DNA of 64,000 nucleotides from Cephaloticoccus sp. (GTDB taxonomy: Bacteria; Verrucomicrobiota; Verrucomicrobiia; Opitutales; Opitutaceae): assembly GCA_030833445.1 (NCBI GenBank), contig JAURHD010000006.1:1-64000 (forward strand). The letters are read 5' to 3'. Below the pieces are notes generated by a model. The model ran no database searches, was not told where the DNA came from, and was given only the letters and a program-made list of their open reading frames with translations. Shown here piece by piece: positions 1 to 12,631 of the stretch. Positions within the stretch are counted from its first letter, which is position 1. The number at the start of each line of letters is the position of its first letter. The position numbers were made by a program, and so were the translations under genes.

Positions 1-59
1 CCATCGGCAGCCCGCAGGATGCGGATCTTATCTTCTGTCGTATGTCTTTTACCTTTCAT
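1..59 (-). CDS. IS3-family transposase OrfA, N-terminal end only (runs off the window)
   Basis: The reverse complement reads ATG at 59-57 and then MKGKRHTTEDKIRILRAADG before the window ends. This matches the start of IS3/IS911-type OrfA proteins, whose N-terminal helix-turn-helix binds the element's ends. A Shine-Dalgarno-like AGAAAGGA lies at 75-68, about 8 bases before the ATG, inside a hairpin loop. The rest of the gene lies left of the window, so whether it is intact cannot be told. Confidence 0.75.
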   Translation of the reverse strand, partial: MKGKRHTTEDKIRILRAAD

Positions 60-125
60 GGTCTGGGTCCTTTCTGGATTCCCAGACTAACTCACTCAAT
101 GGCTCAGTTTCCGTAACCCGGACCA
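60..125 (-). mobile_element. IS3-like element: upstream end and leader hairpin
   Basis: This is the non-coding upstream end of the element whose orfA starts at 59. A 7-bp perfect stem (GTCTGGG/CCCAGAC, 61-67 with 81-87) encloses a 13-base loop holding the Shine-Dalgarno sequence. Beyond it, a terminal-repeat-like block (read on the minus strand, TGGTCCGGGTTACGG then AAACTGAGCC) runs to about 125. It shares the TGAGCC core and spacing with the ends at 1976 and 2690. The outer boundary is inferred from that alignment. No target duplication is visible because the other end is outside the window. Confidence 0.6.
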
Positions 126-351
126 AGTGGCTGCGATATGCGGGTGACAACATGGAGGAAGGTTCCAGAATGACCGATGAATGAATGTTAAGGTCCGACC
201 ATTAATCCAACCCGGCCGAATCCCGCGTCCCGTCTGGTGAGCTTATCGTTAAAATGACCGCCGACTGCGTGGTCTACGCGAGACTTCCGAGTGTCCGGGA
301 GAGCGTTCCGGGATCTTGCTTCCGGACATTTTGAGATTTTAGTATCCGCTG

Positions 352-1497
352 ATGCCACCATGCCCATTCCACCTTCAGACAAGCGCCCCGACCTTACCGA
401 AAGCGGTGGCCGCCGGGCTAGATCCCACGGCTGAGCTCGCATTCTTAGAAGAAGTTTATCCGGCAGGAATAGAGCCCGAGCGCCGCACCTGTCTTGAGGG
501 AGCGATCGCCGCGGATCAAGCCGCCCCACTGACCTCGAAGGAACTGACTTGGGCCGGGCGGATTGCGTGGCGCAATAATTCGCGCTGTATCGGCCGTCTC
601 CATTGGCGAAGTCTGATCGTGCGTGATCACCGCGGACTAGAAACCCCGGACGCAATTGCCGAGAGCCTGCGCGAGCATCTCACCTTGGCATAGGGCGACG
701 GTGCCGTGCGTTCCTACCTCACCGTTTTCGCGCCGCCGGAGCGCTGCGGTGGCCCGGCGCCGCGGATTTGGAATTCCCAGCTTTGTGGTTACGCTGGTTA
801 TCGCGGCACTGGCGGCACTATTTTAGGCGATCCCGCTAACACGCCATTTACTGACCTTGCGCTGCAGCTGGGCTGGCAAGGTCCAAAGAACCCAACAGCA
901 TTCGATCTCCTGCCTTGGATCATTTCTGGCCGCGACGGCCAGCCCCAGCTTTTTCCGCTACCGCAAGGGTTGGTCCGGGAGATTCCAATCCACCATCCCG
1001 AGCACAGTTGGTTTGAAGCGCTCGGGTTACGCTGGTATGCTGTCCCCGTTATCACACATATGCGGTTTCGGGCAGCTGGCACCGACTATCCGGCCTCTCC
1101 TTTTAACGGATGGTATATGGGCACCGAAATTGGGTCGCGCAATCTGGGCGACACTCACCGTTACAATCTACTTCCTCTGATCGCAGACAGGCTTGGCCTG
1201 GACCGAAGGACCTCGCGGAGCTTATGGCAGGATCGGGCGTTGCTCGAGCTTAACCAGGCGGTCCTGCATTCCTACGCAGCCGCAGGAGTAAAGATGATCG
1301 ATCACCATACCGCTTCCGAGGAATTCATTAAATTCCGCGATCAGGAAGCGTCCCACGATCGGGCGATATCGGCGCGCTGGGATTGGATCGTGCCGCCGAT
1401 GTCCGCATCTGCCACGCGGGTCTTTCACACTTCAATGAGCGAATTCGCCACCACCCCGGACTTTCATCACCAACCGGCACCCTCCTTTTCGCGATGA
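352..1497 (+). pseudogene. nos: Bacterial nitric oxide synthase oxygenase, interrupted by one in-frame TAG
   Basis: The frame from ATG 352 reads 113 codons, meets TAG at 691-693, then continues in the same frame without shift to TGA at 1495-1497, about 381 codons in all. Both halves match bacterial NOS oxygenase proteins (B. subtilis Nos is about 363 aa), which oxidise L-arginine to NO and citrulline using an external reductase. The haem-ligand cysteine is in RNNSRCIGR (residue 79). The substrate-binding glutamate is in GWYMGTEIGSRNL, and the biopterin/dimer region MIDHHTASEEF and the late motif WIVPPMSASATRVFH are present. The only visible lesion is the stop, just before GAVRSYLTVF. No Shine-Dalgarno is clear. 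It lies between IS remnants, which suggests transfer followed by decay. A second start at 706 could only make a fragment lacking the haem cysteine. Confidence 0.85.
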
Positions 1498-1870
1498 AGA
1501 GGTGAGCGCCCGATGTTTCCACCAGTGGTTTGGTTGAAAACGCGATGAATCCCCGATGCTCGCTGCGACGATGGGAAATTCGATGGATTTGAAGGGTTTC
1601 ATCATGTGTCCGGCTGTTGCTAAAGCCTCGGAGAATCCTCAGTCCGCTCGTGATCTCACCTTTGTTTTCAGAGGAAAGTGAAATTGATCCGCAGTCCTTC
1701 CATCGTGTCGGTATCACCATGGTTGCTGTGCTAATTCGGTCGCAACGAACCAAATCCCGTCAACCATTCCCAGAAATCGCCGATCTCAAGATTACGGGCG
1801 ACTCTGGTTCATCTCTCGGCACCTCCACCATTTTAATACCCCATCGCGCACCCTCGTGCCGATGGCGTGA
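1498..1870. other. Intergenic stretch with no supported gene
   Basis: About 370 bases separate the broken NOS gene from an IS3 remnant. Open frames here (one on the plus strand from 1617, one on the minus strand up to 1753) resemble no family I recognise and look like chance. No tRNA, clear promoter or terminator was found. Confidence 0.5.
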
Positions 1871-1911
1871 CATGCGGATCTTTTGTTCGGTCGTGTATTT
1901 CCCCCTTTCAT
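1871..1911 (-). pseudogene. Degraded start of an IS3-like OrfA
   Basis: Read on the minus strand, an ATG at 1911-1909 is followed by bases that align with the OrfA start at 1-59. After MKG the frame must slip by one base (this copy is one base shorter) to give KYTTEQKIRM, the equivalent of KRHTTEDKIRI. Similarity ends at about 1871, so only the first 14 or so codons remain. Confidence 0.6.
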
Positions 1912-1976
1912 TGTCTGGGTCCTTTCTGATGTCCCAGACTAACGCTTCCCTTGGCTCAAATCCCGCGTCCCCGTCA
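1912..1976 (-). mobile_element. Second IS3-like end, inserted in a tRNA-Leu fragment
   Basis: The same leader hairpin as at 61-87 occurs here (stem 1913-1919 with 1933-1939, loop containing AGAAAGGA on the minus strand). It is followed by a terminal repeat that reads TGACGGGGACGCGGGATTTG then AGCC from 1976 inward. The repeat starts with TGA, as is usual for IS3-family ends. It abuts a tRNA-Leu 3'-half exactly where the T-loop would continue, so the element appears to have inserted into that tRNA copy. Confidence 0.55.
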
Positions 1977-2016
1977 GGGTCGAACCCACAAGACTTGCGT
2001 CGGTAGATTTTGAGTC
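1977..2016 (-). repeat. tRNA-Leu(CAA) fragment A (probable attachment-site scar)
   Basis: Read on the minus strand this begins with the anticodon loop of a leucine tRNA (GACTCAAAATC, anticodon CAA), continues through a variable arm and ends in the T-arm (GTGGGTTCGACCC), where the IS3-like end at 1976 cuts it off. There is no 5' half. It is in the same orientation as fragment B at 3227-3284, so the two form direct repeats around about 1.2 kb. This is the pattern left when an integrative element recombines at a tRNA 3' end. Their variable arms differ, so they came from diverged copies or have decayed. Confidence 0.6.
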
Positions 2017-2288
2017 AGGCTATGCGTCAGGCCGTGACCGCGTGATCGGGAGTCAGTGACCGCGCTAACTTGTTCAGACTGACATGGCTCGTGCCAGTGG
2101 ATAACGAGCTCTCATCCTCGTGAGCACGCGGATAAGCACCGCTTAAGAGGGGAAATCAGCGTGGGAACCCGTGGCGGTTTGCGGCTTCAGAGCGATAATA
2201 GTGGTATGGCGCGAGCCTTCAAAGAACTAACCGTTAACAGTTGACTCTAAAACAGTTGTTGATGTAGATATTATGAACTAAACTAAAA

Positions 2289-2474
2289 ATGCTTACTAAG
2301 TTCACTTTTGCCGATAAATTACTCTTTCTTGCTTCATTCTTGGTCATAATTTTCTCTAAACTGTTATACTGGCAGGGAGATAAAATTGATGCTATTTTTG
2401 TTGGCCTTTGGGCTCCTTCTATTCTCGCGTTCGGAGTCTATTTGAAACTGATAGGATCTTCGAAAGATGAGTGA
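2289..2474 (+). CDS. Small two-helix membrane protein, unknown function
   Basis: This encodes a 61-aa protein with two hydrophobic segments (about residues 11-27 and 36-53), a short charged loop between them and a charged tail ending SSKDE. Base composition is clearly A+T-richer than the chromosome-like genes to the right, which suggests foreign origin. Its stop overlaps the ATG of the next small gene (ATGAGTGA), so the two are probably translated together. No homologue was recognised. It lies between two tRNA-Leu scars, inside a putative small island. Confidence 0.5.
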   Translation: MLTKFTFADKLLFLASFLVIIFSKLLYWQGDKIDAIFVGLWAPSILAFGVYLKLIGSSKDE

Positions 2475-2613
2475 TTATGTCTCCTATTTTGCAGCTTTGA
2501 TTTTTGTGCTATTTGGGATCGCATTTTTTTCGGCCATGCAGGGATTCAAGCGTTTGGGCAAAGACAGCAAATCCGCAACGAGCAAAACCCCTGACCTGAC
2601 CTCGCTATTTTGA
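2467..2613 (+). CDS. Small single-helix membrane protein whose C-terminus comes from a mini-IS
   Basis: A 48-aa frame starts at ATG 2467, overlapping the previous stop by 8 bases. It has one strong hydrophobic segment (about residues 5-23) followed by a basic tail. The last codons (PDLTSLF and the TGA at 2611-2613) lie in the left inverted repeat of the 99-bp mini-element at 2592, so insertion appears to have replaced the original C-terminus. Function is unknown. The overlap with the upstream gene is the main argument that it is real. Confidence 0.4.
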   Translation: MSDYVSYFAALIFVLFGIAFFSAMQGFKRLGKDSKSATSKTPDLTSLF

Positions 2614-2690
2614 GCCACCTTTCATGGTCTGGGTCCTTTCTGGGGCCCAGACTAACATCAAAGGTGGCTCAAAATAGCGAGGTCAGGTCA
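2592..2690 (-). mobile_element. 99-bp miniature IS3 derivative (MITE-like)
   Basis: Near-perfect inverted repeats (2591-2622 and 2660-2691, 32 bp each including one flanking base per side) begin TGACCTGACCTCGC and enclose only 37 bases. Read on the minus strand the order is terminal repeat, the same leader hairpin as in the two other IS3-like ends (stem 2646-2652 with 2627-2633), ATG AAA GGT, then directly the opposite terminal repeat. It is an IS3-like element whose whole transposase was deleted right after the third codon. No direct target repeat is obvious. The long palindrome could also form a strong RNA hairpin. Confidence 0.65.
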
Positions 2691-2820
2691 GACAAGTGGT
2701 TTTCTGCGAAAGCAAAAAATTATGGCAGTTAAGCAATAATAGCTTGGTCTAAAAGCCCGAAAGCTCTACAATCTTCCGACGTGACACATTACGTGTCTTA
2801 ACATAACCCCCAAAAAACAA

Positions 2821-3048
2821 ATGCAGATCATCGACACAATAATCGGAATACTAAAAAAGATCACTGAGCTTGGAGTTGCACTGCTTGCTCTGACTGTTGT
2901 TCTCCAAGTGGTTTTCGGTACACCGGTGCCCTTTATAAACCTCGATGTTGTAGGCAATCTGACAGGCCTTATCACGACGCTGGGCTCTAGTGGATTGGTC
3001 GGCTTAATAGCTGCTGGTGTATTGTATGCGGTTCTGAGCAAGAAGTAA
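2821..3048 (+). CDS. Small hydrophobic two-helix protein, unknown function
   Basis: This is a 75-aa protein. It starts with a short amphipathic segment (MQIIDTIIGILKKI), followed by two hydrophobic stretches (about residues 16-34 and 48-71) joined by a loop containing GTPVPF, and ends in SKK. The gene stands alone, with a clean rho-independent terminator 18 bases after the stop, which supports it being a real transcription unit. Small size, hydrophobicity and island location would fit a holin-like, peptide-toxin or cargo protein, but nothing in the sequence decides this. Confidence 0.55.
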   Translation: MQIIDTIIGILKKITELGVALLALTVVLQVVFGTPVPFINLDVVGNLTGLITTLGSSGLVGLIAAGVLYAVLSKK

Positions 3049-3066
3049 CCCCAGTTTTTTCGCTCC

Positions 3067-3100
3067 AAGGCTGTCGTCGATCCCGACAGCCTTTTTTTTT
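3067..3100 (+). terminator. Rho-independent terminator
   Basis: A perfect 10-bp stem (AAGGCTGTCG / CGACAGCCTT, 3067-3076 with 3084-3093) with a 7-base loop is followed by a run of T to 3100. It lies 18 bases after the 75-aa gene. Confidence 0.9.
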
Positions 3101-3226
3101 ACCCGCCGTGGGCTGAGCAAGTCGCCAGACTAATCCTTTGCTGCCTCACCGCTGCCTCTCTCCCGCCGTTATTCCCGCTGACTGCGCTAACCCCGTCATT
3201 CTGACATAGTCCGAAGGATTTTTAAG

Positions 3227-3284
3227 TGGTGCCCAGGGTGGGGGTCGAACCCGCAAGCCTTTAAAGGGCGGCAGATTTTGAGTC
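3227..3284 (-). repeat. tRNA-Leu(CAA) fragment B, 3' half with CCA
   Basis: On the minus strand this reads from the anticodon loop CTCAAAA (anticodon CAA) through the anticodon 3' stem, a long variable arm, the T-arm (GCGGGTTCGACC) and the acceptor 3' strand CCTGGGCA to an encoded CCA. The 5' half is absent, so it cannot make a tRNA. It is the direct-repeat partner of fragment A at 1977-2016 and probably marks the right edge of an integrated element. The donor full-length tRNA-Leu(CAA) is not in the window. Confidence 0.65.
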
Positions 3285-3362
3285 ACAGCGTTGACACGGG
3301 TTCAGGGCTGGAGGGTCCGCCCCGTAGGGGGCCACCCCATGATGCCGTCTGGGATGCGGGCG

Positions 3363-5459
3363 CTACGGTAGCGCCACAGTTTCGTCACTGAAGCTAATCC
3401 GTTCCATCTGGCGCAGGACATCGCGCCGTCCGGAGCCGCCCTTTCGGGTGACCGTGTAGGTGCTTCCGCTCTTGCTGACGTCGTAGTCGGCATGCTTCCC
3501 GGAATAAACCACCGTGTCGGTGCCAGCACCGCCAGTGAGTGTTGCGTCGGGATCTGTGTCCTGGGCATAGATGGTATCGTCGCCGCCAAATGTTCGAATA
3601 TTGGTGCTGTGATTGCGGTCGCGGATTATCACCGGCGCCTTGAAGCATTTGAGGATATCGAGCCCCGTCGTGATGGAGGCGAAGGCGAACCGCGCATTCA
3701 GGCTCCCGGGCGCCGGAGGGCAGGAGGCGTAGGCCAAAAAATTGCACCGTCCTTCCACGTCTAAATAGGCGATGAAGCGGCAGGGTGAATCAAACACGAT
3801 ACCGTATTTTTTCCCGAGCAACTGCCGCACCTGCTCGTCCCAGGTCCGCCAAGAGTCGCGGAGCACGGGGTACAGTCGTCCGGTGCCATCGTTGATCAGG
3901 ATACAGGGGTTCGAGGTGATGGGGACGACCTTGTAATCCAGATTGTTCGAAAGAAAATAGTTCCGGATTCCGCTGCCATCGAGGTCCCGGCGCTGCATGG
4001 AGTAGTCGACCTCACCGCCCTTGGGATCATAATCGGGATTGAGCTGGTCAGTCTTGTCCACAAACTCCAGCCCGCCACCCTGATTCTGGAACAACTGCAG
4101 CATCGCCAGCCCCTCCGGCCACATCGACGCGGAGGCCAACAGGTCGAGGCGTCCGTCCTGGTTGAAATCATCAGTCCAGAGTCGCGGAACGTGGGTGTTC
4201 CACCGGCCCCACAGGCTGCTGCGGGTCGAATACGCCCCGCGCGCCGAAAAATAGGGCACCAGGGAGGCCGCCGGCGGTTGCAGGACTCCATCCGCATAGT
4301 CAAAAAGTCCGATGGTGAAGAGGTAGCGCTCGGGCGCGCTCGGGTCGAAGTAACCGCTCGCACTGTTGTCACCCACCGCTACCACGGTGGTGCCGTCACC
4401 GCGAAAATCGCCCGCCGTGATGCTCATGCCCCCGCCGGGCACCGGCAGTTCGCGGGGCGCGAGGCTGCCCGAGGCATTCCACGTGTACTGCGGATTGGCC
4501 AGGCCGCGATGGAAGCCCGTGAATACCGGGCTCGTGGAAAAGGACATCGTCGCGAGGGCCGGCCGGCCGGCTATCGGCACCAACTGGGCATCATGCGCCA
4601 TGACTGCATCGTCGACCGCGACGCTCCGGAAGTGCTGGGGAGACTCGCTCAGCCAGACCGTGCTGGGCTTGGCGATGAAGGGGCTTTCGTTGTGGGCGAG
4701 AAACACGACGTCCGTTATCTGGTCGCCGTTGAGGTCGGTGGTGATGACGCTGCCGCCTCCGTTGGTCTTCGCCGAAGCCACATAGCTTGCGGTCGCCATC
4801 TGCAGGTGACCGTCATCGGTCTGGTCGAGCAGCAGCGCTTCTACCGGAGTCGTGTCGGCCGACTGCGGCGCCCCTTCCCAATCAAATCCACTGTAGGACC
4901 AGGCCGTCATGGCGATGCCATCCCTCCGCTCCGGGCCGAGCGGGAATACCGAGTAGAAACCGGTGATAGGGCTGCGCCACTGCCCATCCTGGGGCGCATG
5001 GGCGTCCAAGGGGCTCCAAATGCCTACAATCAGCGTGATGGCCTGAATGTCGTTGGGCGCCACGCTGGTGGAGGTGATGTGAATCTGGAGCGGCGTTGCC
5101 ACACTGGCCCGGGCTGCATCCGTCGCAGTGACCTGCAAGTTGAGTGTGCCCGCGTCATTCCAGTCGGGCGTGCCCGCAAGGCTGTGGGTGCTGGCATCGT
5201 AACTGAGCCAGGCGGGCAGTGATTGCCCCGAATTTGTCGTCACCGCGAAAGTAAGCACATCGCCGTCTGGGTCGCTGAAGGTGTTGCTGGGAATGTAAAA
5301 AACAAATGGAGCGTCCTCGCGTGCCTCCTGGGCCGCGAGCAGGTGCGCCACCACTGGCACCCGGTTGGCGGGTGCCTCCGGAGCCACGGCACGGTCCCCG
5401 CCACAACCCGCCAGCAGCAGCGCGCCAACGAGGACTAGCCCACTGAACCGACCAGACAT
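3363..5459 (-). CDS. Secreted lipoprotein with Ig-like, FG-GAP-like and RTX-like C-terminal regions
   Basis: I start at the ATG at 5459 because a lipoprotein signal (LVGALLLAGC) follows at once; the open frame extends 37 codons further upstream. The 698-aa product has a dystroglycan/cadherin-type domain at about residues 35-130 (FSDPDGDVLTF, LAGTPDWNDAGTL). A long middle part carries calcium-binding FG-GAP/VCBS-like repeats (DLNGDQITDVVF, DFRGDGTTVVAV, DFNQDGRLDLLA, DLDGSGIRNYF). The C-terminus is RTX-like (GGDDTIYAQD, GGAGTDTVVYSG, MERISFSDE). It is probably an outer-membrane-anchored adhesion or integrin-like propeller protein. The neighbouring type II secretion operon could export it, but that is inference. 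Confidence 0.75.
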   Translation of the reverse strand: MSGRFSGLVLVGALLLAGCGGDRAVAPEAPANRVPVVAHLLAAQEAREDAPFVFYIPSNTFSDPDGDVLTFAVTTNSGQSLPAWLSYDASTHSLAGTPDWNDAGTLNLQVTATDAARASVATPLQIHITSTSVAPNDIQAITLIVGIWSPLDAHAPQDGQWRSPITGFYSVFPLGPERRDGIAMTAWSYSGFDWEGAPQSADTTPVEALLLDQTDDGHLQMATASYVASAKTNGGGSVITTDLNGDQITDVVFLAHNESPFIAKPSTVWLSESPQHFRSVAVDDAVMAHDAQLVPIAGRPALATMSFSTSPVFTGFHRGLANPQYTWNASGSLAPRELPVPGGGMSITAGDFRGDGTTVVAVGDNSASGYFDPSAPERYLFTIGLFDYADGVLQPPAASLVPYFSARGAYSTRSSLWGRWNTHVPRLWTDDFNQDGRLDLLASASMWPEGLAMLQLFQNQGGGLEFVDKTDQLNPDYDPKGGEVDYSMQRRDLDGSGIRNYFLSNNLDYKVVPITSNPCILINDGTGRLYPVLRDSWRTWDEQVRQLLGKKYGIVFDSPCRFIAYLDVEGRCNFLAYASCPPAPGSLNARFAFASITTGLDILKCFKAPVIIRDRNHSTNIRTFGGDDTIYAQDTDPDATLTGGAGTDTVVYSGKHADYDVSKSGSTYTVTRKGGSGRRDVLRQMERISFSDETVALP

Positions 5460-5681
5460 GAATGGCCCAGCACCCCTCGAGTGGTTGTGCGGTACGCGTG
5501 CTGACATCGGTGCCTTTTGAGGGCACTTGGGTAAATCGACAATCGGATAATATAGACCCGCGCGAATCATTCGGTGGGCTTGAGCCTTCGGACAATATCC
5601 TCACAGCTACCTACCTGCCCGTAGCTTTTCGGGTCATCTTGCTAACCTAGTCATTCCGGCGGAGTCCCAGCCTCTCACCGC

Positions 5682-5768
<87 letters not shown>

Positions 5769-5957
5769 TTCGGGTCTGCTGAATCTTTAAGTCGAAGCCG
5801 TCGCCGTCAATCACGGGGAGCAGTCTACGTAAAAATCGGCGCGATGGCTACTGATCGAGCAACCGGATGATCTGATTTCAACATCGCCTTCCGGGTGGGC
5901 TCGATTTTAGATTGCCATGACCGGCAGGGTATCTCCCCTAGTTGGCAGACGGTGCGC

Positions 5958-7988
5958 ATGAATCTTCGACGACTTAATTTGACTCAAAAACTGGCTCTGA
6001 TTGCCGCGGTGATTTGGTTACCGATCTCTCTGTCTGCCGCAGGCACCAGCGAGGGAAACGCTTCCGGGGGCATGGGTGACGATGAACTGGTGGGGCAGAT
6101 TGAAATCCCCGGTGGGGACCTGGATACCATCCTCGGGTTAATGGAGCGTTGGACTGGCCGCTCACTGTTGCGTCCGCAGAATTTGCCCACCCTTACCTTG
6201 CCCCTGAATCTCAAAGACAACGTGACCAAGGCCGAGGCCATTCAAGCCATCGAGACCTTGCTTAATCTCAACGGAATTGCCGTCACCCCGCTCGGAGATC
6301 GTTTTCTCAAGGTCACCCCCCTCAGCGCGGCCAAGTCCGAGGCCCCGGAATTGATCGAGGGTTCGGTCCTGACCCTGCCGCCCAGTGGCCGCACGGTCAG
6401 CAAGCTGTTTCAGCTCAATTTTCTTCGCGTGGGTGAATTCATGCCGCAAATTGCCGGGTTGCTCAATCCCGCCGCGGGCAGCCCGCCCGTGGTCTTCGAC
6501 AAGGCCAACGCCGCCCTCGTCACCGATTCGGTCAGCAACCTGCAACGCATCGAGACCCTCATCCAACAGCTGGACCAGCCAATGATGAACGGCCTGAAGC
6601 CAAAGTTTTACACGCTACAATCGGCCAAGGCCAGCGAGGTGGTGAATAAGATGCGCACGATGCTGACCGGTGCCTTGCAGACCCAGCTAGGCACCGCCAC
6701 CAGTTTCAATGCCGATGATCGCACCAACCAGATCGTCCTCATCGCCGACGAGCGCCAGCAGTCGTTTTTTGATGAATTGATTTCCCGACTCGATGTGCGC
6801 GCCGATCCGAATACGCGCAACGAAGTCATCTTTCTTAAGCATGCGGTCGCCAAGGATGTGGCCGATATCCTGAGCACGCTCGTGACTGGCCAAAACAAAA
6901 CCACGGCAAATTCGGGCCAATCCACGGTGCGTCCGGCCGCCCTCACCTCGGCGGGATCCAACGGTAACGCGACACCACCCACGCCTGCGATAGCGACCGT
7001 GTTGCCCCAGCTTGATTTGCAGGACTCCAACCAATTCAGCAGCGTTCTCACAATCTTGCCCGAGGAACGCAGCAACGCGATCGTGATTTCCGGGACCGTC
7101 GATGACTTGCGGCTGATTCAGGATCTGGTCGCCAAGATTGACGTGCTGCTCGCCCAAGTGCGCATCGAGGTCGTGATTGCCGAAGTCACGCTGAGCGATG
7201 ATGCGACGTCCGGCATCAGCCAGTTGGGTCTCCAAGTGAGTGGCGACCGGCTGGTCGGCTTCAGCGGGACGGGGGCGGGGATCGGGGTGACCGATGGAGT
7301 TCTTTCCCGTAATCCCAACACGGGCCGGTTGGATTTGGTCGCCATGATTTCACTGAGCACCACGCCGCGCAAAAACAACATCAACATCCTCTCCGTCCCC
7401 AATATCGTCACGACCCACAACAAGTCGGGTGAGATTTTTGTGGGAGAAAAACGACCGGTGATCAGCAGTTATCTAAGTGATTCCAACGCCAATCAGAATT
7501 TGGGTAGTGGTTACCGTTCGACGGTCAATCAGCAGGACATCGGCATTTCCCTCACGGTGAAACCGCTGATTGGTTTGGATGGATCCGTGCAGCTTGAAAT
7601 CCAACAGGAAGTAAACGACGTCTTGGGCGAGATTATCATCGATGGAAATCCTCAGCCGCGCATCGGCAGCCGTAAAACCGACTCGTTTGTCAGTGTGCAT
7701 AGTGGTGAGGTCATCGTGCTCGGTGGATTGCAGCGGGAGTCGCAGTCCAAGAACAGCAACCGGCTCGGTCCGATTCCAATCATTGGGGATTTGTTGGGTT
7801 CGCGCTCGCGCAGTAAATCGCGCACCGACTTGGTCTTCTTTCTCCGTCCGACGGTGCTGGGTAACAATGAATCCGATAATATCGCCGCCATGAATCAAGT
7901 GGAGCGCATGCCCGAGTCGCAGCGCGCCAAGGTCAAACAGGCACTCGAAGTTACTGACGGGGCCGCCGCCCATGCCGACCGGAACTGA
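5958..7988 (+). CDS. gspD: Type II secretion system secretin GspD
   Basis: The start at ATG 5958 gives a signal peptide (NLTQKLALIAAVIWLPISLSAAG). The open frame has another ATG at 5895, which would spoil it. The 676-aa protein has the N0 domain (about residues 45-125), N1-N3 repeats (about 145-400; LNFLRVGEFMPQIAGLLNP, LQSAKASEVVNKMR, LKHAVAKDVADILSTL) and the secretin core ending in FLRPTVLG. It forms the outer-membrane channel through which folded proteins leave. It is the first gene of gspD-E-F, 190 bases downstream of the tRNA. Length is typical of the family. Confidence 0.93.
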   Translation: MNLRRLNLTQKLALIAAVIWLPISLSAAGTSEGNASGGMGDDELVGQIEIPGGDLDTILGLMERWTGRSLLRPQNLPTLTLPLNLKDNVTKAEAIQAIETLLNLNGIAVTPLGDRFLKVTPLSAAKSEAPELIEGSVLTLPPSGRTVSKLFQLNFLRVGEFMPQIAGLLNPAAGSPPVVFDKANAALVTDSVSNLQRIETLIQQLDQPMMNGLKPKFYTLQSAKASEVVNKMRTMLTGALQTQLGTATSFNADDRTNQIVLIADERQQSFFDELISRLDVRADPNTRNEVIFLKHAVAKDVADILSTLVTGQNKTTANSGQSTVRPAALTSAGSNGNATPPTPAIATVLPQLDLQDSNQFSSVLTILPEERSNAIVISGTVDDLRLIQDLVAKIDVLLAQVRIEVVIAEVTLSDDATSGISQLGLQVSGDRLVGFSGTGAGIGVTDGVLSRNPNTGRLDLVAMISLSTTPRKNNINILSVPNIVTTHNKSGEIFVGEKRPVISSYLSDSNANQNLGSGYRSTVNQQDIGISLTVKPLIGLDGSVQLEIQQEVNDVLGEIIIDGNPQPRIGSRKTDSFVSVHSGEVIVLGGLQRESQSKNSNRLGPIPIIGDLLGSRSRSKSRTDLVFFLRPTVLGNNESDNIAAMNQVERMPESQRAKVKQALEVTDGAAAHADRN

Positions 7989-9660
7989 GGCCATGTCCAC
8001 CGCTTGGTTGGCAAAATTGAGTGCGGCGGCACAACCGGCCGTGCTCGAGGCTCCGCGGGGCGAACGACAGGCCGCTTGGTCCCAGGCGCTTGGGCTAACT
8101 GAAAAGGATGGGTTGGCGGAATTGTCGGCCGTTTCAGGAATTCCCGTGGTAACGGATCTAAAGATAGATGAGGCCGTCCGTCCGTTGATACCGGCTCGCT
8201 TGGCGGCGGATTTTCAGATCGTGCCCCTGCTAATCACCGACGCGGCGGAAACGGAAATTCATTTGGCGACGGGTTGGGTGCCGGATGTGGAAGTGGAGGA
8301 TTGGGTGCACGCGTTTACATCCAAGACTCTTTGCTGGCACTTGGCGGTCGCCGACAAGGTGCAGCAATTGATCCGCGACCATTATGGCGTGGGCGCGGGC
8401 AGTCTGGATATGGCCAATGAGGCCGAGATCACGTTGACGGAGGCACTGGGCGACACGGATGCGGACGAGGATGCCGCCGTGGTGCGCTTCGTGACGGATG
8501 TGATTACACAGGCGATTGAGGATGGCGCGACGGATATTCATTTCGAACCACAGGAAGGTCAGTTGCGCATTCGCTACCGGGTGGACGGACTGCTGGTGCC
8601 CGTGCCATTGCCGGAAAATCTCCTGCGCTTTCAGGATGCGATTATTTCGCGCCTCAAGATCATGGCGCGCCTCAACATTTCCGAGCGTCGCCTGCCGCAG
8701 GATGGCCGCATCAATTTCAAGGCGGGTGGCAACTCGCTCGACATTCGTATTTCCACCATTCCCACCATCTATGCCGAGAGCGTGAGCTTACGATTGCTCA
8801 ATCTACGCCGCGAAGCCTATACGATGGACCGCATTGGGCTCGATGCCGGGGAAAAGGAACGCATCACCGGCGTGTTGGATTCGCCGCACGGCATAGTGCT
8901 GGTCACCGGGCCGACCGGGTCCGGAAAATCCACTTCGCTCAATGCGTTTCTGCGGCAGATCAACTCGACCGATTTGCGCATTGTTACGGTGGAAGACCCG
9001 ATCGAATACGAAGTGCCCGGGGCAAACCAGATTCAGGTTCGGCCGGAAATCGGCCTCAGTTTCGCCAGTGCACTCCGCCACATTTTGCGCCAAGACCCCG
9101 ATGTCATCATGGTGGGTGAGGTCCGCGACCGGGAAACGGCGGATATTGCGATACGCGCCTCCCTGACCGGGCACTTGGTTTTCACCACGCTGCACACCAA
9201 CGATGCCCCGGGCGCGATCACCCGGTTGATCGACATGGGCATCGAACCGTTCCTCATCGCCTCGGCCATTGAGCTGGTGATTGCACAACGACTCGTGCGC
9301 CGGCTTTGCCACCACTGTTCCAAGCCGGAACCGGTCGCTCCGCAAAAATTGCGTGACAACCTCTCAGCCTTGGGCATCGACCAGGCACTGGCCGATGGCG
9401 TAACCAGCCTGCAAGTTCCGGTGGGTTGCGATCATTGTCGCGGCACCGGTTTCCGGGGTCGCATCGGACTCTTTGAGATCCTGCGACCGAATGAAGAGAT
9501 GCATGACCTCATTGTGAAACGCGAATCCACCCGCGCGCTGGCCCGTAGCGCCGCGAAGCACGGCATGCGCAGCTTGGCCGAGTCCGGTTGGATCAAAGCC
9601 CGGGCCGGCGAAACCACGCTCGACGAGATTCTGCGAATTATCAGCGTCAACGATCGCTAA
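7972..9660 (+). CDS. gspE: Type II secretion ATPase GspE
   Basis: A 562-aa cytoplasmic hexameric ATPase. After a T2SSE N-terminal domain it shows Walker A GPTGSGKSTSLNAFL, an Asp box (EDPIEYEV), a Walker B region (DPDVIMVGEVRD), a His box (GHLVFTTLHTND) and the GspE-type zinc-binding C4 element (CHHC at the start, CDHC about 45 residues later). It energises pseudopilus assembly. ATG 7972 overlaps the end of gspD by 17 bases. A second start, ATG 7993 (MSTAWLAKL), lies 4 bases after the gspD stop and is equally possible. Confidence 0.94.
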   Translation: MPTGTEAMSTAWLAKLSAAAQPAVLEAPRGERQAAWSQALGLTEKDGLAELSAVSGIPVVTDLKIDEAVRPLIPARLAADFQIVPLLITDAAETEIHLATGWVPDVEVEDWVHAFTSKTLCWHLAVADKVQQLIRDHYGVGAGSLDMANEAEITLTEALGDTDADEDAAVVRFVTDVITQAIEDGATDIHFEPQEGQLRIRYRVDGLLVPVPLPENLLRFQDAIISRLKIMARLNISERRLPQDGRINFKAGGNSLDIRISTIPTIYAESVSLRLLNLRREAYTMDRIGLDAGEKERITGVLDSPHGIVLVTGPTGSGKSTSLNAFLRQINSTDLRIVTVEDPIEYEVPGANQIQVRPEIGLSFASALRHILRQDPDVIMVGEVRDRETADIAIRASLTGHLVFTTLHTNDAPGAITRLIDMGIEPFLIASAIELVIAQRLVRRLCHHCSKPEPVAPQKLRDNLSALGIDQALADGVTSLQVPVGCDHCRGTGFRGRIGLFEILRPNEEMHDLIVKRESTRALARSAAKHGMRSLAESGWIKARAGETTLDEILRIISVNDR

Positions 9661-9662
9661 CC

Positions 9663-10892
9663 ATGGCAACGTTTGCCTACACCGCCCGTGATACTGCGGG
9701 AAAAACCGTGTCCGCCGCCGTGACGGCCGAGACCCGCAAGGAGGCCCTGCGATTGCTGGCGACCCGTGGTTTGCAAGTGCTCAACTTGTCGGAATCGGCG
9801 ACGACGGGTGCGGTGCTGGCCAGCCCGAAACAATTCAAGAAGTCAGTGATCCGGATGCCGCAATCCCGTGATCTCTTGCCCTTTTTGCAGGCCCTCACGG
9901 AATTGACGACGAGTGGATTGTCGCCGGGAGAAGCCGTGCGCCTGCTCGCCAATCGCATGAAGGAACCGAGGCTGCGCACCCTTTGCGGCTTGCTGTGGGA
10001 CAGTCTCAAGGAAGGGCAGACCTTGTCCCAAGCGATGGAAGCCATCCCGGCCGTGTTTGACGTGCAGGCAGTCAGTCTGGTGCGCGCCGCCGAAGCGACG
10101 GGCAGTCTCAACGAGGTGTTGCTGCGTCTCATCCAACATCACACCGAGCAACGCGAACTGAAACAAAAGCTCACGACCGCGCTGACCTATCCGTTGTTTG
10201 TCGGCATCGTCGCCTTGGGGGTGATCGCGTTCTTTGTCTTCTTCCTGATGCCGCGGCTGCAAGGACTACTGAATTCGCTGGGTGGCAAGCTGCCATTGTC
10301 CACGCAGATCTTGGTCACCGGCTCGGAGCTGTTGGTGCGTTACGGGATTTTCGTGGTGCCGTTGGTCGTCATTGCGGCGGTGTTGGCGTGGCGCTGGCAC
10401 CGGACGGAACGCGGACGGGTGGTCATTGATGAGCAATTGGTCAAACTGCCGTTGATCAAATCCTGGGCGATCGACACCGGGGTGCTGGCCTTTGTGCAAA
10501 CCCTCGCAGTGCTGTTGGAAAATGGCATCAACACCGTCGAGGCCCTGCGGCTCACTGAACGCACCGTGCCCAATCGCACGATCCGGGCGGCCCTCCGTCA
10601 GGCCACGGAACGCGTGATCGAGGGCGACAGTTTGTCGGGTGCGCTCTCCCGCACGGGTTACTTTCCGGATCTGGTTTTGGACCGGCTGGCCGTCGGCGAA
10701 AACACCGGCAAGCTGGCTCCCTGTTTGCGCGACATCGCGCAACATTATGCGACCCGGCACACCCGGCGTTTGCAAAACATGGTCGGCGTGATCGCCAACG
10801 CCGTGTTGTTGTGTGCCTTCGCGTTCGTGGGCTTTCTCGCCTACGCCATCGTGGCCGCCGTGCTGCGGGTCAGCGCGAGTTTCCAGTTCTGA
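9663..10892 (+). CDS. gspF: Type II secretion inner-membrane platform protein GspF
   Basis: The start at ATG 9663 lies 2 bases after the gspE stop and gives the family's usual opening (MATFAYTARDTAGK). The 409-aa protein has two T2SSF domains (about residues 75-195 and 275-395) and transmembrane segments near 175-195, 225-245 and 380-400. It contains repeated glycine-glutamate motifs (TTSGLSPGEAVRLL; LENGINTVEALRL). It links the ATPase to the pseudopilus. It is the last gene of this operon and converges on gspM. Confidence 0.93.
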   Translation: MATFAYTARDTAGKTVSAAVTAETRKEALRLLATRGLQVLNLSESATTGAVLASPKQFKKSVIRMPQSRDLLPFLQALTELTTSGLSPGEAVRLLANRMKEPRLRTLCGLLWDSLKEGQTLSQAMEAIPAVFDVQAVSLVRAAEATGSLNEVLLRLIQHHTEQRELKQKLTTALTYPLFVGIVALGVIAFFVFFLMPRLQGLLNSLGGKLPLSTQILVTGSELLVRYGIFVVPLVVIAAVLAWRWHRTERGRVVIDEQLVKLPLIKSWAIDTGVLAFVQTLAVLLENGINTVEALRLTERTVPNRTIRAALRQATERVIEGDSLSGALSRTGYFPDLVLDRLAVGENTGKLAPCLRDIAQHYATRHTRRLQNMVGVIANAVLLCAFAFVGFLAYAIVAAVLRVSASFQF

Positions 10893-10904
10893 TCCGCCGT
10901 TCAC

Positions 10905-10945
10905 GGATGTATTGGCCGCGGAGACACGGAGACGCGGAGAAAAAC
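10905..10945. repeat. Copy of the CGGAGACACGGAGACGCGGAG intergenic repeat
   Basis: Between the convergent gspF and gspM genes lies a G+C-rich segment (core GGCCGCGGAGACACGGAGAC) of the same family as those at 39799-39863, 41041-41152 and 53161-53294. Only one arm is present here. Confidence 0.5.
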
Positions 10946-10982
10946 TTCGGTTTCTAATCAGTCAAGACGACCGGCCGTGTCG

Positions 10983-11507
10983 TTACTTGGCCGGGGCAAC
11001 CACTTCGACGGAGTAAATCCGGAAGTTGGCGTTGAGCAGACCGGAGTTGGCGCGATCGGTGGCCAGCACACATTGGTCTATCCCGAGATAGGGTGCCCGG
11101 GCGGAAAGTTTTTCGTAGAATTGCAGCAAGGCAGGCAGACCGGCCTGACGGATGTTGACCTGCACACTGTGCAGCGCGAATTGCTCGGTGCGATCGGTGC
11201 GCTGCGAACCCAGGTCAGCATTGAGACCCTTCAGCATGGCATTGAGTGCGGCGAAACTTTGGGCGGAATCCAATGCTTGCGCCGGATCGAGTGAGCGGCC
11301 GGCAGTGGCCACGCGGGCCATGATATCGTCGCGATTGGCCAACCAGAGTTCTTGGGCGGCTTTTTCCTGCTGAGCGGATTGCCAAAGTTGCAGGTGTGCG
11401 CGGCTGCGTCCGAGGAGGGAAGTGCCCCACCAAGCCAGAGCGATTCCGGCGTAGAGCAGAATCAACCAGCGTTCACGCCCCGAGCGCTGCAGAAAGAAAG
11501 CCTTCAT
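10983..11507 (-). CDS. gspM: GspM-like type II secretion protein
   Basis: A 174-aa protein with one N-terminal transmembrane segment (about residues 14-31), a coiled periplasmic stretch and a C-terminal ferredoxin-like part (ALLQFYEKLSARAP). Size, topology and position right after the gspL-like gene fit GspM, an inner-membrane platform subunit. The family is poorly conserved, so the call rests largely on context. Its start overlaps the gspL stop by 4 bases, and it is the last gene of the minus-strand gsp operon. Confidence 0.7.
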   Translation of the reverse strand: MKAFFLQRSGRERWLILLYAGIALAWWGTSLLGRSRAHLQLWQSAQQEKAAQELWLANRDDIMARVATAGRSLDPAQALDSAQSFAALNAMLKGLNADLGSQRTDRTEQFALHSVQVNIRQAGLPALLQFYEKLSARAPYLGIDQCVLATDRANSGLLNANFRIYSVEVVAPAK

Positions 11508-12631
11508 GCGCCTCCTCCCGGTTGATACCAGTTGGGCTTGAAGGTGACCTCCAATTGAAAACTCGTGCGGCCGGCGCGCATGCGGGGATCGCGCAATTCA
11601 ATCTTCTCGATTCCGGGAACCGATTTCAGCGCTTCCTCGTAGGTGCGCAGATCGCCGGCTTCACTGGTCTGGGCCTCGATGCTGAGTTGTGACGGACCAT
11701 TCGTGCTGACCCGCAGGAATTCGACGGAAGCGGGTCGCGGACGATTGACTGCGGCCAACATTTCAAAGGGCCGCAACTGCTGATCGGTCATTTTTTGCAG
11801 TTTGATCGCGAGCACCTGGGCAGATTCGATTTCCTGCACGGCCGAAGCGTTGGCGTCCAATTTACTGCGCTGCGAGGCCAGCAGAGCGCGTCCGCCCAGC
11901 AGGCCGATCTCCACCAACAGACACACGGCCAGCCCTGCGGCCAGCGCGGCAAAGCTGCGCCAGAACAGATTGCTGCGGCGATCCTGGGCCTGTTGAGTCG
12001 CGAGCAAGGTCTTATCCCGAATGTCCACTTGGCCCAAGGCCGTCAGTGGCACGTTGGCCTGATGGGCCTCCCCGATATTCAGCTGCAAGCCAGTCTTGTT
12101 GATCCCGAGCGAGCTGACATGACCTTGAAACGCATTGATCTGGTCGTCGGCCAAGCCAGAGCGACGTTTGAATTCATGGAGCAGTTCCGCCTCGACGCGC
12201 CGGGTCGTTTCCGGAGAGACCTGCCGGGTAAGAATCAATGTGGGTAGTTCCGAGGCTTCATCCCACGCGACCGCTTCGATCACTTGGTCCGTGGCCCGTA
12301 GACTGCCGGTGCCCGCGCGCGAACGGCGCGGCGCGATTCCCCACAGGACAAATTCGGGCAGGACGGCCCGGGCGGTTTCCCACGTCGCCTGTTCTTCGGT
12401 GGTAAAACTGCGGCGGTAGGCCGCATAGACCAACGCATGCCGCCGCGTGTAATCCACGAGGTAACCGTAATACAATTGCTCGAGGGGGAACGGCGCGAGG
12501 GTTTCCAGCGCCAGCTCGACTTGGGGGCCAATGGGGGCATTGGCCGCGAGTCCGATGCGACGCACAAAGAACCGGTCACCCGCGAGCAAGATCACGGGTT
12601 GATTACGGGAAGTGGTGGAGGAAGCCGGCAT
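11504..12631 (-). CDS. gspL: GspL/PilN-like type II secretion protein
   Basis: A 375-aa protein. Residues 1-210 form an actin-like cytoplasmic domain of GspL/PilM type (LALETLAPFPLEQLYYGY). One transmembrane segment follows at about 225-250, then a periplasmic part with a ferredoxin-like fold (STNGPSQLSIEAQTSEAGDL...GIEKIELRDPR). GspL connects the GspE ATPase to the pseudopilus through GspM. It sits 8 bases after gspK and overlaps gspM by 4 bases. Confidence 0.75.
   Translation of the reverse strand: MPASSTTSRNQPVILLAGDRFFVRRIGLAANAPIGPQVELALETLAPFPLEQLYYGYLVDYTRRHALVYAAYRRSFTTEEQATWETARAVLPEFVLWGIAPRRSRAGTGSLRATDQVIEAVAWDEASELPTLILTRQVSPETTRRVEAELLHEFKRRSGLADDQINAFQGHVSSLGINKTGLQLNIGEAHQANVPLTALGQVDIRDKTLLATQQAQDRRSNLFWRSFAALAAGLAVCLLVEIGLLGGRALLASQRSKLDANASAVQEIESAQVLAIKLQKMTDQQLRPFEMLAAVNRPRPASVEFLRVSTNGPSQLSIEAQTSEAGDLRTYEEALKSVPGIEKIELRDPRMRAGRTSFQLEVTFKPNWYQPGGGA

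Follow-up and report, generated by a model that had tools for sequence, protein, structure and literature searches.

The analysed stretch, referred to as the window, comprises 64,000 nucleotides of a Cephaloticoccus sp. assembly (GCA_030833445.1, contig JAURHD010000006.1, positions 1 to 64,000, forward strand), which is a 72-contig draft. Near its left end, the window carries the frame of a bacterial nitric oxide synthase (NOS) oxygenase that is divided by one amber codon. The following features make up the gene:

352–1497, forward strand: NOS oxygenase frame with one amber codon (380 sense codons, an internal TAG and a terminal stop)
352–690, forward strand: N-terminal part, 113 aa, with RCIGR and a Cys aligned to the haem-ligand column
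586–588, forward strand: Cys79 codon, assigned from sequence and alignment
691–693, forward strand: in-frame TAG at codon 114, in a variable column that holds nine different residues in the 93 other NOS rows
694–1497, forward strand: C-terminal part, 267-aa open frame, which contains Glu259; first listed start GTG 706
1126–1128, forward strand: Glu259 codon within GWYMGTEIG, assigned from sequence and alignment

The whole 352–1497 stretch, with the TAG inside, matches profile PF02898 over positions 30–360 of 362 (422.3 bits, E 1.1e-126; curated cut-off 22.7 bits). The separate parts score 60.7 bits (352–690) and 345.5 bits (694–1494), and the remaining two forward frames over the stretch contain 12 and 10 stops. 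The TAG is the sole internal stop and the sole lesion, which confirms the first-pass annotation of a NOS gene broken by a single amber codon. In an alignment with 93 other NOS rows, 61 columns are near-invariant (at least 97%), and the window protein departs from none of them. This alignment excludes the window copies (L001, L020, L022, L031 and L038), a spurious match (L002), two contig-end pieces (L018 and L019) and one row with a broken frame (L046). An N-terminal CPFH motif (Cys-X2-His; 361–372), which is common to L039 and L040, is a candidate for a possible metal-binding end.

Both key columns are occupied in the window NOS, by Cys79, which we take to be the haem ligand, and by Glu259, which is presumably part of the substrate site. 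The TAG falls between these residues, and no uninterrupted chain carries both; the locus was accordingly classed as a family pseudogene, not as an enzyme. We presume from NOS biochemistry that neither truncated product would make NO. In sequence, the N or C part matches the solved bacterial NOS oxygenases (1m7z, 1mjt and 2flq), with which the window gene shares an oxygenase domain alone. The solved proteins are intact, in contrast to the broken window copy. The available part of one report describes bacterial NOS as mostly oxygenase-only (PMC3701330).

An intact copy in relatives, which the first-pass annotation had proposed to look for, was found in the Kiruna bin-10736 MAG (L039). This orthologue encodes 381 aa in a CDS of 1146 nt. 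It agrees with the window gene in length, start and the 61 near-invariant columns, and the two are 88% identical in amino acids and 88.7% in nucleotides, with no indel in the coding region. They differ in the stop at codon 114 of the window gene and in their flanks, since DNA similarity is confined to window positions 296–1543. NOS matches over the cut-off were identified in 17 of 387 genomes of the phylum, including seven in the family of the window (the window genome is counted in both figures). The internal stop occurs in the window alone; all 15 other complete matches are free of stops, a count that omits genome G190, where NOS is present only as contig-end pieces. None of the eight other same-genus genomes, three of which are less than 90% complete, has a NOS match over the cut-off. 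A match of 22.1 bits in genome G001 (L002) lies under the cut-off and was rejected because it runs antisense to a transposase-like 405-aa ORF. A related NOS at positions 1–1052 of RGVP01000199.1 (L046; 72% aa identity) is without residues ~126–149 and has a changed frame; it looks like another NOS that broke independently, unless the assembly is at fault there.

In the NOS tree, a quick tree without bootstrap in which some row pairs are identical, the window NOS pairs with L039 (SH-aLRT 100) inside a 14-row Verrucomicrobiota clade (99). This clade is nested with weaker support (87) in a 31-row clade of the same phylum, and two further phylum rows (L004 and L057) lie outside it on long branches. 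Contrary to what had been supposed, NOS is not unexpected in this group: the phylum-wide matches, the 31-row clade and published Opitutae MAGs all place it there. The proposed tree yielded a close sister and gave no sign of a distant origin.

The divergence of the two NOS genes (dS 0.31, dN 0.061) was compared with that of markers from the same genome pair. GspE (66.4% aa/65.5% nt), XseA (71.2/69.5) and CysK (62.8/66.6) are far less similar, with dS of 0.96–1.77; the CysK match in the genome of L039 may be a paralogue, since members of the genus share 86–90% aa. Misbinning of the L039 contig was excluded as the cause of this contrast, because UxaC on that very contig is only 70% identical in nucleotides to another contig of the window genome (G000). 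The higher nucleotide identity of NOS (against 65.5–69.5% in the markers) and its absence, at the cut-off, from the eight other same-genus genomes indicate that the gene moved laterally after the two lineages split, in either direction or into both from a third. Of the import that the first-pass annotation had suggested, the lateral signal stands, and the comparisons place the source in the same family or close to it rather than in a distant group. The codon use of NOS, also named earlier as a check, is atypical for the window: its score of 0.012 lies below those of all 37 window ORFs (0.071–0.304), which were hand-picked by eye, and its GC3 is 0.62, compared with 0.63–0.85 in the same picked ORFs.

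Mobile-element ends lie near the gene, as had been noticed, together with a tRNA further to the right:

1–113 (upper limit approximate), reverse strand: 5´ end of an IS3-family element (orfA start), which reads leftwards off the contig and is continued in L038 1–78
1872–1965, reverse strand: decayed 5´ end from an IS of this type, 79–82% identical to the copy at 1–113
2591–2691, no strand assigned: 101-bp IS deletion derivative forming a MITE-like hairpin; two 36-nt arms correspond to the IS ends, and the interior is deleted
5682–5767, reverse strand: tRNA-Leu(taa), at the end of a gene order conserved with genus members

A fuller copy of the IS (L021) comprises orfA with HTH_Tnp_1 and orfB with rve domains. 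The IS 5´ end was matched at 18 places in the genome, many of them at contig ends; the assembly thus breaks at this repeat. A check for a composite transposon found only the two 5´ ends, both on the reverse strand; the contig end truncates the first, and the second has decayed. The genome of L039 (G412) has no match to the IS, and the IS is thus not established as the carrier of NOS. NOS is present in 14 plasmid and two phage records; each is less than 60% identical to the window NOS, and hence no vehicle was found among them. A 26-base stretch of the window NOS gave no match in viral contigs. To the left of tRNA-Leu, NOS included, no DNA shared with genus members was found. A tRNA-linked island was considered and rejected, as no tRNA-end repeat was found on the left and relatives have ordinary genes there. 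The one long gene on that side encodes an Ig/FG-GAP-type protein, not an integrase. What the analysis establishes at the tRNA is a break in gene order and no more.

The first-pass annotation had considered a sequencing error likely. An error of sequencing or assembly in an intact gene would agree with the draft state of the genome, the lack of any other lesion, the full set of near-invariant residues and the purifying selection described below. Against this, contig JAURFH010000327.1 (L038) from another MAG, SFB_3D_100_87, is identical to window 1–2944 at 2944 of 2944 bases, including the TAG, and reaches 78 bases further left than the window start (coverage 6.6 in its title). A random error is unlikely to recur in two assemblies, and the amber is probably genuine. 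L038 may not be strictly independent, as it may derive from the same sample, population or reads as the window, and the independence of the reads is unproven. Overall, an error is very unlikely. L038 was rejected as proof of a same-species copy, because the rest of its genome (G411) belongs to another species. G411 is without the window gsp operon, its best match to GspE is 48%, and window 2945–12000 has no long high-identity match in it. The L038 contig is therefore either misbinned in G411 or recently shared. Live and dead alleles might also occur together in the population, as a recent lesion would allow. The presence of the TAG in both assemblies speaks against such a polymorphic amber, which we rate as less probable again.

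Between the window NOS and L039, dN/dS is 0.196 overall, 0.287 upstream of the TAG and 0.166 downstream. With changes polarised against 10 outgroup rows, of which two are identical, the window branch carries 14 replacements and 24 synonymous changes and the L039 branch 7 and 18 (Fisher p 0.59). Relative to the L039 baseline, the data speak against neutral evolution over at least 20% of the window branch (P ≤ 0.048); the branch counts are small, and the 7/18 baseline is noisy. The substitutions still bear the mark of purifying selection, which suggests that the inactivation came late or that the gene is still constrained; the data fit both.

Constraint on both sides of the TAG, together with a GTG at 706, 12 nt past the stop, could point to a tolerated amber. 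Low readthrough, or two chains produced by reinitiation at GTG 706, would supply a little working NOS and would explain the absence of further decay. However, all 15 other complete NOS genes of the phylum lack an internal stop, and no obvious Shine-Dalgarno sequence precedes 706 by eye. Neither of the two signs of amber recoding, a CTA suppressor tRNA or disuse of TAG as a stop, was found in the window genome. None of its 42 tRNA genes (RF00005, named with ARAGORN), an incomplete draft set without tRNA-Ile, has a CTA anticodon, and TAG is the terminal stop of three of the 37 picked ORFs. The first-pass remark that nothing supports readthrough agrees with this tRNA set, and we regard a functional readthrough or two-chain enzyme as the least probable reading.

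The locus is very probably an Opitutae NOS gene that was laterally exchanged and later lost its function. A NOS oxygenase gene would have been exchanged between the window lineage and another Opitutae lineage, and a single nonsense mutation would then have inactivated the window copy. The TAG divides the presumed haem-ligand Cys in the N-terminal part from the remaining haem pocket and the substrate site in the C-terminal part. We infer both the loss of function and its recency; the single lesion and the retained purifying selection make a very recent pseudogene, as first annotated, the likeliest reading. Against it, selection that stayed purifying until now would also be expected of a gene still in use, through readthrough or a polymorphic stop.

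Neither the NOS family nor its occurrence in this group is new; what the window adds is an inactivated copy. The available part of one study on freshwater Opitutae credits Opitutae-Tous-C4FEB with a NOS gene, which it describes as shared with other MAGs of that work, and mentions no broken copy (PMC5673642). The available part of another names no verrucomicrobial NOS (PMC9500659), and a limited literature search found no published account of a pseudogenised bacterial NOS. The locus would offer a clear snapshot of a NOS gene that moved between two members of a family and was later lost, in keeping with the patchy occurrence of NOS among bacteria. As gene gain and loss go, the case is ordinary, and alone it leaves the view of the enzyme unchanged.

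A different architecture was observed in G190, a genome of the same family, where a NOS oxygenase domain forms the last part of an open frame of 884 aa truncated by the contig end (L203, 3–2654, reverse strand). A limited literature search found no published Sorangium-type NOS with a cyclic nucleotide-binding domain. Ahead of NOS in the G190 frame come cyclic-nucleotide-binding stretches and a BFD-like [2Fe-2S] domain, along with a region that matches an FAD-binding domain weakly. This fusion resembles the Sorangium NOS, which has an N-terminal 2Fe2S reductase according to the available part of PMC3701330, but it differs in carrying cNMP domains.
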